Origin: Deltaproteobacteria bacterium HGW-Deltaproteobacteria-12
GTDB taxonomy: Bacteria; Desulfobacterota; Syntrophia; Syntrophales; Smithellaceae
Direction of reading: 5' to 3'
Length of the DNA: 64,000 bases
Assembly (NCBI GenBank): GCA_002840565.1
Contig: PHBK01000010.1
Span: 184,375 to 248,374 of the forward strand
Shown here in pieces: positions 30,213 through 33,030 of this stretch. Made by a program: the position numbers and the translations under genes. The notes below the pieces were generated by a model. That model was not told where the DNA came from. It ran no database searches and worked only from the letters and a program-made list of their open reading frames with translations. Each line of letters opens with the position of its first letter. Positions within the stretch are counted from its first letter, which is position 1.

Positions 30213-31574
30213 TTATGGTTTCGGAAAATCCTTGATCGCCTTTAATGCTCTTTCTATTTCTTCATCAGGCAATTCATAAGCCTCTAGTTTGCCCGATAAA
30301 TAAGCATCATAGGCGCCAAGATCAACCAGGCCATGACCGCTCCAGTTAAAGAGAATAATTTTTTCCTTGCCTTCTTCTTTGGCGCGCAGCGCTTCATCGA
30401 CAACAGCTGCCAAAACGTGGTTGGTTTCTGGTGCGGGAATAAACCCTTCCGTCCGCGCCCATTTGACACCGGCATCAAATGTTTTCAGCTGGTCATATGC
30501 TCTGGCTTCAATAAATCTCTCCCGAACCAGATGGCTGACGATAGGAGCCATGCCATGGTAACGCAGGCCGCCGGCATGAATTGGCGCCGGAATATAATCA
30601 TGGCCCAGCGTATACATAGGCAAAAGCGGCGTTGTTTTTGCCAGATCACCGAAGTCATAGGCAAACGGGCCTTTGGTCATGCTGGGGCAGGAAGATGGTT
30701 CCGCCCCGACTATATTCACCTGTTTGCCATGAATCTTGTCGCAGACAAACGGCGTGGCAATTCCGGCAAAATTACTGCCTCCGCCGCAGCAACCCATCAC
30801 CACATCAGGATAAATGCCGAGTTTCTGCATTTGTTTTTGTGCTTCCAGACCGATAATCGATTGGTACAGCAAGACATGGTTCAAAACGCTGCCCAGTGCA
30901 TACTTAGTATCTTTGCTGGTGACGGCATCTTCGATGGCTTCACTGATGGCAATGCCCAGGGAACCGGGAGAATCGGGATGCTCTGCCAGAACGTTGCGGC
31001 CGGCCTGGGTCATATTGCTGGGACTGGGAATGCATTCCGCACCCCAGGTGTTCATCATCATGCGACGGTATGGTTTTTGTTCATAGCTGACCTTGACCAT
31101 ATACACACGGCAAACCAGATCAAACATCTGGCAGGCCATGGATAGGGCGCTGCCCCACTGACCCGCGCCGGTTTCCGTGGTGATGCGTTTAGTTCCGGCT
31201 ACTTTGTTGTAGTAGGCCATCGGTATCGCGGCGTTAGGCTTGTGCGATCCGGCCGGGCTGACACCTTCATTTTTATAATAAATCTGTACCGGGCAGTTCA
31301 GTAGTTTTTCAAAATTGCGCGCACGGTACAGGGGAGAGGGACGCCACAGCAGATACTTTTGCAGCACTTCCTCGGGTATGTCGATCCACCTTTGAGTGGA
31401 GACTTCCTGCTCAATTATATTCATGGGGAAAATAGCGGCCAGATCTTCGGCTTGAACCGGCTGTCCTGTACCCGGATGCAGCGGCGGTTTCATCGGCGTG
31501 GGCAAGTCCGCCATAACATTATACCATTGTTTCGGAATTTCCTGATCTTCCAGCTGTACTTTGACCTGTTTCAT
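30213..31574 (-). CDS. trpB2: Tryptophan synthase beta chain, TrpB2 type
   Basis: A 453-residue PLP enzyme, longer than TrpB1 as expected of the TrpB2 group. [10 protein letters not shown] carries the PLP-binding Lys, [12 protein letters not shown] the catalytic Glu region, and [11 protein letters not shown] the phosphate loop. It condenses indole with L-serine to tryptophan; TrpB2 enzymes usually work without TrpA and may salvage free indole. No other trp gene is beside it. ATG at 31574 follows AGGAGAATACTT. The leader encodes an 18-residue peptide with three consecutive Trp codons and an attenuator, which strongly supports a tryptophan-related function rather than another beta-replacement reaction. 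Confidence 0.9.
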
Positions 31575-31614
31575 AAGTATTCTCCTTTTTGAATTGATTG
31601 ATAAAACTAAAAAA

Positions 31615-31719
31615 AAATGCCATGGGTTTTCTTCCCACGGCATTTATATTTTTATAAGTTGAACTCATGGGAAGGATATTCCCTGCCCATGCTCACCTTT
31701 TATTCGAGCTTATGGGCAG
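31615..31719 (-). promoter_or_regulatory. Tryptophan attenuator (alternative hairpins) upstream of trpB2
   Basis: In transcript order five segments alternate. A (31706-31719) ends the leader peptide and contains its stop codon. B is 31683-31694, C 31666-31675, D 31631-31645 and E 31615-31626. A pairs with B (CTGCCCAT/ATGGGCAG plus GCTC/GAGC) and C with D (CTTCCCAT/GTGGGAAG): antitermination. B with C (CATGGG/CCCATG) and D with E (AAATGCCGTGGG/CCCATGGCATTT) form the terminator, followed by a run of about ten U. A ribosome stalled at the Trp codons leaves A free (readthrough); one at the stop codon masks A (termination). Confidence 0.85.
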
Positions 31720-31766
31720 ACTGTTAAAGCCTGCCACCACCAGTTATTATAATTTATTGCGATCAT
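31710..31766 (-). CDS. trpL: trp leader peptide (18 aa, three tandem Trp codons)
   Basis: The frame ATG...TAA encodes MIAINYNNWWWQALTVCP. The TGG TGG TGG run is at 31742-31734, a few codons before the stop, which lies in attenuator segment A. The start is 192 bases upstream of the trpB2 ATG. The ribosome-binding site is modest (GTGATAAAG). Three Trp codons in an 18-codon frame placed exactly before alternative hairpins and a U-run are the hallmark of ribosome-mediated attenuation. Confidence 0.85.
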   Translation of the reverse strand: MIAINYNNWWWQALTVCP

Positions 31767-31821
31767 CTTTATCACTTCATTTTAATTATTCGACTTTTCA
31801 GTAACACAACAAATTAATGTA

Positions 31822-31827
31822 TGTCAA
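31822..31827 (-). promoter_or_regulatory. Candidate -35 element for the trpL-trpB2 transcript
   Basis: On the minus strand TTGACA lies about 56 bases before the leader ATG. The -10 region (TTACTG/TACTGA, 17-18 bases on) is weak. Confidence 0.35.
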
Positions 31828-31836
31828 GCAGAAATT

Positions 31837-33030
31837 TTAATAAAAAAATTCTTTATCCCGCCGATACCAGTAGTTAGGGATCAGACGGTACATTAATCGA
31901 GAGAAAGGACCGATATATTCCTGAGTCCTTTTATCATACTGGCAAGCTTGAATTACGAGATCTTTAATCGCGCTTTTTGTTTCTGCGGTATTAAATATAT
32001 GATGGGCGCAGGAAAAAAGAGGGCTGTACATATTTTTTTTCTCTAAATATTTATAAACGTTCTTAATCGTATTCGGCCCTTCCGGTGTCCCGTCAATCTT
32101 CTCTAATACACGCAGGTTAGTTTCTATCGGATTACCGGTATAGAATTGATAAAAATATTTTCCATAGCGGTAATTCTTGCTGGCCAGAGAAGAAACAGTA
32201 ACATACATGTCACCTACACCGGCCTGGCTATGAAAAGCCTGAAAACTTCCGCCTAAGAGGCGAGACAGCGAGCGGATTTCCACTCCGGAACGCGCAAATA
32301 TCGTGCCGGGAATTGAATCGCCCAATTCCAGCGAATCTGCGAGGCCCTTAATATTTGCTACAATATTTTTCAGGGCGCCGCAGGCCTCCACGCCAACAAT
32401 ATCAAAATTATAGTATGAATTTAATTCCTTGCGATTGAACTTGAACAAATCATCTCGAATAATGCCCGCAATGCGTCTTTTCCCGGCAATGGTAACACAG
32501 ACCGGATTGCCCAGCGCAATATCCATATCAAAAAAAGGGCCTCCGATACAGACCACATCGTATTTATGCTTTATCCTATAAAGGTTGTTGTTGATCAACT
32601 GCGACGGCGTAATTAACTCTTTGGATATTTCATCGGAAATTAAACCTTTAATCGGAGAAATGAGGCATGTATCACCTGCCTTTTTGGCCAGCATCGGCTT
32701 CAGGTAGTTGAGCAGTTCCGGCAAACGGTTCATTGTTACCGCCAGGACAATGAAATCGTTATTTTCAACGATGTGTTCCAAATCGTTGGTTGCGTATAAT
32801 TTAGGAGAAAGCCGCGGAACATTTTCCAGGCCGCCCAATTTGTTCGCTAAATCTTCTGTTAAATGAATAGGATTTAAATGATCCCTGTTTATCGCTTTAC
32901 AAACTTCAGAATCATGGTAATAAATAGCAACTCGCTTGTTGTCACGACCCAGTTTATAGGCAAAGGAAGTGCCCAAACGGCCGGGACCGATGATGGCAAC
33001 TCTCGAGGTGTCTAAATTAGGAATTATCAT
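31837..33030 (-). CDS. NAD-dependent glycerol-3-phosphate dehydrogenase-like protein
   Basis: A 397-residue protein of the GpsA fold. The N-terminal Rossmann motif is VAIIGPGRLGTSFAYKL, GVEACGALKNIVANIKGLADSL contains the catalytic Lys of the family, and AGVGDMYVTVSS matches the C-terminal 'GxGDL' motif. It would interconvert dihydroxyacetone phosphate and glycerol-3-phosphate. It is longer (397 against about 335) and diverged from typical GpsA: the Rossmann loop is GPGRLG rather than GxGxxG/A, and the C-terminus has an extra ~50 residues. It may thus be a paralogue with another substrate. It is upstream of trpL on the same strand. Confidence 0.75.
   Translation of the reverse strand: MIIPNLDTSRVAIIGPGRLGTSFAYKLGRDNKRVAIYYHDSEVCKAINRDHLNPIHLTEDLANKLGGLENVPRLSPKLYATNDLEHIVENNDFIVLAVTMNRLPELLNYLKPMLAKKAGDTCLISPIKGLISDEISKELITPSQLINNNLYRIKHKYDVVCIGGPFFDMDIALGNPVCVTIAGKRRIAGIIRDDLFKFNRKELNSYYNFDIVGVEACGALKNIVANIKGLADSLELGDSIPGTIFARSGVEIRSLSRLLGGSFQAFHSQAGVGDMYVTVSSLASKNYRYGKYFYQFYTGNPIETNLRVLEKIDGTPEGPNTIKNVYKYLEKKNMYSPLFSCAHHIFNTAETKSAIKDLVIQACQYDKRTQEYIGPFSRLMYRLIPNYWYRRDKEFFY

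Follow-up and report, generated by a model that had tools for sequence, protein, structure and literature searches.

The element just upstream of trpB2 in the window (the whole stretch of DNA analysed here, 64,000 nucleotides of a Smithellaceae genome) is read by us, with high confidence, as a ribosome-mediated transcription attenuator that ties trpB2 expression to charged tRNA-Trp. Since the switch is conserved in most relatives, trpB2 is very probably switched on by tryptophan shortage; its physiological role is most likely the conversion of indole to tryptophan under such shortage. A tryptophan-regulated role of the gene had been put forward in the original prediction; this reading is supported by sequence, conservation, and two-state folding, and the physiological role is what we infer. 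The mechanism is classical, and the interest lies in the gene that is controlled and in the breadth of conservation. The role of a second, stand-alone TrpB in tryptophan supply is often left open, and a leader that most trpB2 genes of an order possess, next to a trp operon with an attenuator of its own, would mean that the gene is wired to tryptophan shortage.

Leader frame, competing arms, and promoter-like element

The leader frame opens with an ATG at 31766 and closes with a TAA at 31710 of the minus strand (57 nt), and its direct reading gives MIAINYNNWWWQALTVCP. A series of inverted repeats comes next in the 3' direction and leads into an intrinsic terminator with its U-tract; then come the Shine-Dalgarno sequence and, 34 bases past the end of the terminator, the start codon of trpB2. 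The features are as follows.

31822 to 31827, minus strand: TTGACA, a -35-like sequence just past the stop codon of the upstream gene, with a -10-like region around TGTGTTAC 17-18 nt later
31710 to 31766, minus strand: leader peptide ORF MIAINYNNWWWQALTVCP, read directly, with the start codon in frame in all 49 aligned homologues
31734 to 31742, minus strand: three tandem Trp codons, the putative sensor, conserved as WWW or WWWW
31729 to 31735, minus strand: arm A (GGCAGGC), starting inside the third Trp codon and pairing with B if free of the ribosome (A:B -12.2 kcal/mol; 92.3% of cells of the helix paired in 49 sequences)
31706 to 31721, minus strand: arm B, which holds the stop codon and pairs with A or C (B:C -19.1 kcal/mol; 86.3% of cells paired)
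31681 to 31694, minus strand: arm C, pairing with B or D (C:D -14.3 kcal/mol; 79.5% of cells paired)
31661 to 31674, minus strand: arm D, pairing with C or, as the antiterminator, with E (D:E -13.8 kcal/mol; 92.5% of cells paired)
31631 to 31643, minus strand: arm E, the 5' half of the terminator, pairing with D or F
31609 to 31626, minus strand: arm F with the U-tract, the 3' half of the terminator (arm F alone 31626-31617; E:F -16.0 kcal/mol)
31582 to 31589, minus strand: Shine-Dalgarno AAAAGGAG of trpB2, from the sequence
30213 to 31574, minus strand: trpB2, the regulated gene, a TrpB-like PLP enzyme with its ATG at 31574 (NF009057 and TIGR01415)

The leader is a short ORF whose tandem codons specify the amino acid of the downstream gene, a terminator lies 5' of the structural gene, and a predicted promoter with a weak -10 lies 5' of the leader, as one would expect of an attenuator. 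The hairpin at 31645-31615 is the sole terminator-like hairpin with a U-tract in 31500-32000, and the folding energy of the 191-nt region is -55 kcal/mol, whereas dinucleotide shuffles average -37.1 (z -4.86), none of the 200 shuffles doing as well. The frame reads exactly as the original prediction gave it, and the mutually exclusive hairpins that it described as ending in a U-run terminator agree with this hairpin and with the conserved alternative pairings. Its five arms are all present (B to F here), but a sixth, 5'-most arm (GGCAGGC, 31735-31729) had been missed; once its arms A-E are renamed B-F, its stall and read-through logic is correct, and both folding states were reproduced.

The -10 region in the window is a poor match to TATAAT and is absent from the output of the automatic promoter scan. 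Across relatives, 52 of 56 loci carry TTGAC no more than 150 nt 5' of the Trp run, usually at -84 to -98, and a TGTGyTAC-like sequence follows it. A transcription start 3' of the leader had been named beforehand as a finding that would speak against attenuation; the conserved promoter-like element sits 5' of the leader, not downstream of it.

Conservation in relatives and two-state folding

Relatives of the trpB2 protein were located at 80 loci in a scan of species genomes, mainly in Smithellaceae/Syntrophaceae and other former Deltaproteobacteria. TGGYGGTGG is present in 56 of 79 trpB2 upstream regions (window included), whereas shuffles give 0.24 on average and 3 at most; the Trp-run count is so far above the shuffles across relatives that chance is excluded. 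A short Trp-rich frame precedes the gene in most loci, usually ending in ..VCP or ..ICP, and in the 49-leader alignment the length of the Trp run changes by whole codons (WWWW in five), with WRW in place of WWW in three leaders. There are also loci in which a Trp codon has turned into CGG (L013, L034, L051, L159, and L150; WRW, WRR), and others (L068, L069, and L071) whose leaders have no Trp run (MAIIRWCESKNRRWRPRARGMPL). The CGG-bearing leaders and the MAIIRWCESKNRRWRPRARGMPL group are possibly decaying attenuators; the genus that apparently holds the latter group (g34) carries TrpR.

In the terminator state, 88.5% of the helix cells are standard pairs versus 40-49% when the partners are slid by 1-3 columns, and 62 cells show two-sided changes; in the antiterminator state, the corresponding values are 88.7% versus 41-50%, with two-sided changes in 37 cells, where the number of pairs with such changes is not above that in shuffles. 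Please note that many pairs are invariant owing to strong sequence conservation, and such pairs give no covariation information. In the E:F helix of the terminator itself, 97.8% of the cells are paired, and 18 sequences have a two-sided change at one pair. All five helices, as predicted from the sequence, are kept, with compensatory changes. An unconserved TGG run or unconserved stems had likewise been listed as evidence that would count against the original prediction; both the Trp run and the compensatory stem changes turned out to be conserved in relatives.

One could alternatively take the hairpin as a constitutive intrinsic terminator of the upstream glycerol-3-phosphate dehydrogenase-like gene (33030-31837), with trpB2 served by its own downstream promoter and the Trp-rich frame being incidental. 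Terminators between co-directional genes are common and one is present here, and a few relatives have up to ~330 bases from terminator to gene, which would leave this reading some room; however, the gap between the U-tract and the trpB2 ATG of the window is only 34 bases, the conserved promoter-like element is placed between the stop codon of the upstream gene and the leader, and the Trp run, the frame, and the mutually exclusive arms are all conserved. On account of the position of the promoter-like element, the short gap, and the conserved leader features, we rejected the constitutive terminator as very improbable.

The leader is closely associated with trpB2 genes. A covariance model of the leader has a match in 139 of the 155 genomes of the order, and a gene search found trpB2 in 130 genomes of the same order. 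Among the 123 trpB2 genes of the order with a usable 5' end, 100 have the leader 26-331 bp upstream on the same strand, and at 23 it was undetected. In the phylum sample, the model matched 58 of 395 genomes at E 1e-5. Outside the order, at least four families (f90, f109, f31, and f59) have Trp-run leaders preceding trpB2, e.g., MRRYAVQERTTPVRWSWWWQAWP and MGKVVGSNAWWCWWWKTESVH, some of them with the same three-hairpin layout. Ten genomes with both the leader and trpB2 have no detected trpA; these could be salvage-only, although their assemblies are incomplete and at least one of them (L156) still has trpE.

The alternative pairings were then followed by folding. A stall was mimicked by folding the RNA between the start of B and the end of E, which gave B:C and D:E; for a ribosome at the stop, folding began at C, and here C:D formed and E was left free for F. 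With F included in the fold, E:F prevails even in the stalled state, so antitermination requires, like in known attenuators, that D:E has formed by the time F is transcribed; in the same way, the equilibrium energies of terminator (-16.0 kcal/mol) and antiterminator (-13.8 kcal/mol) mean that the switch must act co-transcriptionally. For 49 leaders, we calculated the probability that arm E is paired before F exists, for a ribosome placed either at the Trp run or at the stop codon. Folding of both states had been suggested along with the original prediction, and in the window the two alternatives were obtained, with arm E 98% paired in the stalled state and 10% at the stop (0.98 versus 0.10; difference 0.87, as against at most 0.09 in the null). 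Taken over the 49 leaders, the median of this difference is 0.47, and for spacer-shuffled leaders 0.02; 24 of the 49 exceed 0.5, and about half switch by less than 0.5 in this simple model, several GC-rich ones barely (e.g., L050, L051, L057, L064, and L067). In silico folding and conservation together give exclusive terminator and antiterminator structures with the position of the ribosome selecting between them, which is the behavior that defines an attenuator.

Terminator and antiterminator alternatives by themselves would equally suit a riboswitch or a protein-bound leader in which the peptide plays no part, and Rfam does hold a riboswitch candidate named trpB (RF04312), which reaches 24.1 bits here against a gathering threshold of 59. 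The description of this family is, however, confined to Firmicutes and Fusobacteria (PMC11109978), and 20 related loci that were compared with Rfam all stay below every threshold. Beyond the competing arms no compact aptamer is conserved, and what is conserved instead is a UGG run in an open frame that tolerates insertion of a whole codon. On these grounds we rejected the riboswitch reading, to which we give hardly any weight.

For the attenuator, we propose the following scheme. Transcription would begin at the promoter just 5' of the leader, and the leader peptide would be translated while the RNA is being made. With ample tryptophan, the ribosome would reach the stop codon in arm B and cover A and B; C:D and E:F would then pair, and RNA polymerase would terminate. 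When charged tRNA-Trp is scarce, the ribosome would halt on UGGUGGUGG and cover A, leaving B to pair with C, and D would pair with E before F is transcribed, so that the polymerase would continue into trpB2. If the leader is not translated at all, A:B, C:D, and E:F would form and transcription would end. Leader translation, ribosome stalling, and termination in the cell are what we infer from these structures.

The trpB2 gene, its genome, and related leaders

The trpB2 product scores 732 bits with NF009057 (cut-off 366) and 641 bits with TIGR01415 (cut-off 518.85), versus 146 bits with the TrpB1 model TIGR00263, below its cut-off of 392; being above the curated cut-offs and higher than with the TrpB1 model, these scores place it among the TrpB2/TrpB-like proteins. 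The nearest solved chains (6hul_B, 4qys_B, and 6hte_B) are labelled tryptophan synthase beta chains. Because the downstream neighbor is convergent, trpB2 appears to stand alone; a transcription terminator 3' of trpB2 was sought, and none was found.

Also present in this genome is a complete trp operon that includes trpB1 and trpA; its leader MAKIITTMSLNGWWWSLMGRSVRR (L084 2164-2238) contains a Trp run and is followed by two successive terminator-like hairpins before trpE. A further leader of this genome, the Phe/Tyr/Trp-rich MDRQLNANISFYGYWFYTYFASVCPLLRTC (L084 9057-9147, contig C25), lies with terminator hairpins directly before the DAHP synthase gene (L084:9266) and shares with the trpB2 leader the SVCP tail and the CATGGGCAG/CTGCCCATGG arms; it is likely a mixed-codon Phe/Tyr/Trp attenuator, and a relative of the same family (L161) has MMDRKLTANNNIYGYWFYTYFVLVCPSLRRTC at the matching place before DAHP synthase. 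No TrpR was found in this genome. Given the separate trp operon leader, the DAHP synthase leader, and no TrpR being found, trpB2 is probably one of several genes of its genome that respond to aromatic aminoacyl-tRNA supply. As for the source of indole, the genome has weak PF01212 matches alone (best 43.7 bits), so a tryptophanase is unlikely. Over the order, TrpR is present in 6 of 100 genomes with the leader versus 6 of 23 without it (p 0.01), an apparent anti-correlation to which we give no weight since the genomes are not independent (mostly one family).

Is the gene controlled by the attenuator indeed one for tryptophan supply? TrpB-like families include enzymes of other preferences, the genome already has a complete, separately attenuated trp operon, and in relatives some Trp-rich leaders precede genes other than synthases (iorA-like and paaK-like), all of which would fit a TrpB2 that makes another product or uses another substrate needed in tryptophan shortage. 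The protein is nevertheless clearly within the TrpB-like families, its nearest solved chains being those named above, and the simplest reading of control by charged tRNA-Trp is a function in tryptophan supply; a real attenuator in front of a TrpB2 with such another role is thus considered unlikely, and the tryptophan-supply role is preferred.

Other leaders were seen in passing. In the own genome, candidate attenuators are a Leu-rich leader before a leuA-like gene (L124), another Leu-rich leader before a 2-oxoacid oxidoreductase gene (L123), a Tyr-rich leader (NYYGYYYYCNIRY) before a LivK-type transporter gene (L126), and a Lys-containing frame before a dapA-like gene (L122), which may be due to chance. 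Trp-run leaders were observed before an indolepyruvate-ferredoxin-oxidoreductase-like (iorA-like) gene at L160 and L163 (MNIKNDSLTFWWWQSINKRGKTVRCLQEF), and paaK-like (phenylacetate-CoA-ligase-like) genes at L162 and L169 have one a Trp-run leader and the other a Phe-run leader, these gene names being assigned by inspecting the sequences. Such leaders suggest that the iorA-like and paaK-like genes may serve aromatic amino-acid synthesis from arylacetates. Phe-run leaders (FFVFFSFF and RFFSFFSFF) lie before LivK-type periplasmic binding protein genes at L164 and L165 and are possible phenylalanine attenuators of an amino-acid transporter; at L168, a YFYYFWYYWF leader precedes an aldolase-like gene, maybe an aromatic-pathway ADH synthase.

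It is conceivable, although we hold this tentatively and with some doubt, that one relay-type RNA scaffold is reused across Syntrophales and related Desulfobacterota with differing leader codons, i.e., Trp for trpB2, trpE, iorA-like, and paaK-like genes, Phe/Tyr/Trp for DAHP synthase, and Phe for the LivK-type transporter and paaK, and that this attenuator family replaces the Trp repressor for aromatic supply. If so, the presence of Trp leaders at iorA and paaK would imply a biosynthetic direction for these "degradation" genes, with arylacetates being salvaged.

Comparison with known attenuators and RNA families

The Rfam searches at gathering and permissive thresholds gave no family of which the trpB2 leader is a member at threshold. 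His_leader (RF00514) scored best in a focused search, with 25.6 bits, below its cut-off of 49, and Trp_leader (RF00513) has no gathering-threshold match in the window and is absent among the matches up to E 10. With the leader family below the Rfam thresholds, annotation pipelines miss the trpB2 leader. The "trpB ncRNA motif" RF04312 (PMC11109978) resembles it in having a cis hairpin, an antiterminator region, and a terminator, sometimes before trpB, but comes from Firmicutes and Fusobacteria and is described with no leader peptide.

A literature search of partial coverage found no published trpB2 attenuator in this phylum. In Geobacter, conserved sequences before iorAB-paaK have been assigned to tryptophan and those before a DAHP synthase gene to aromatic amino acids, and the passages concerned propose no leader peptides for them (PMC2700814). 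The original prediction had stated that attenuators are known for trpE-led operons; a Trp attenuator has, however, already been predicted before the trpB2A operon of Corynebacterium diphtheriae (PMC1262725), so trpB2 is not a wholly new type of gene as an attenuation target. As in the window, the attenuator there is predicted and the operon begins with a gene called trpB2; unlike in the window, the host is an actinobacterium, trpA follows trpB2, which thus belongs to an operon and is no stand-alone gene, and the prediction was made in one genome.

The first cases of ribosome-mediated attenuation were the trp operon of E. coli and the his operon of Salmonella (PMC1183508). The E. coli trp attenuator (RF00513) likewise has tandem Trp codons in a short peptide, with a stall leading to antitermination and the stop to termination, but it has four segments, heads trpE operons, and acts alongside TrpR, whereas the trpB2 leader has six segments in a genome where no TrpR was found. 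With six segments, the layout is his-like rather than E. coli-trp-like: the his attenuator of Salmonella and E. coli (RF00514) has the same chain of alternatives, with an extra hairpin between the pause hairpin and the terminator, and differs in its His codons, in the gene controlled, and in a sequence unrelated beyond the hairpins. This extra hairpin has been argued to lower basal read-through and to be unneeded in the TrpR-controlled trp operon (PMC1183508). Judged from its sequence, the trpB2 leader unites Trp codons and a his-type layout, and no TrpR was detected in its genome; a Trp attenuator with an extra his-type relay hairpin, in lineages mostly without TrpR, fits this basal-leak argument.
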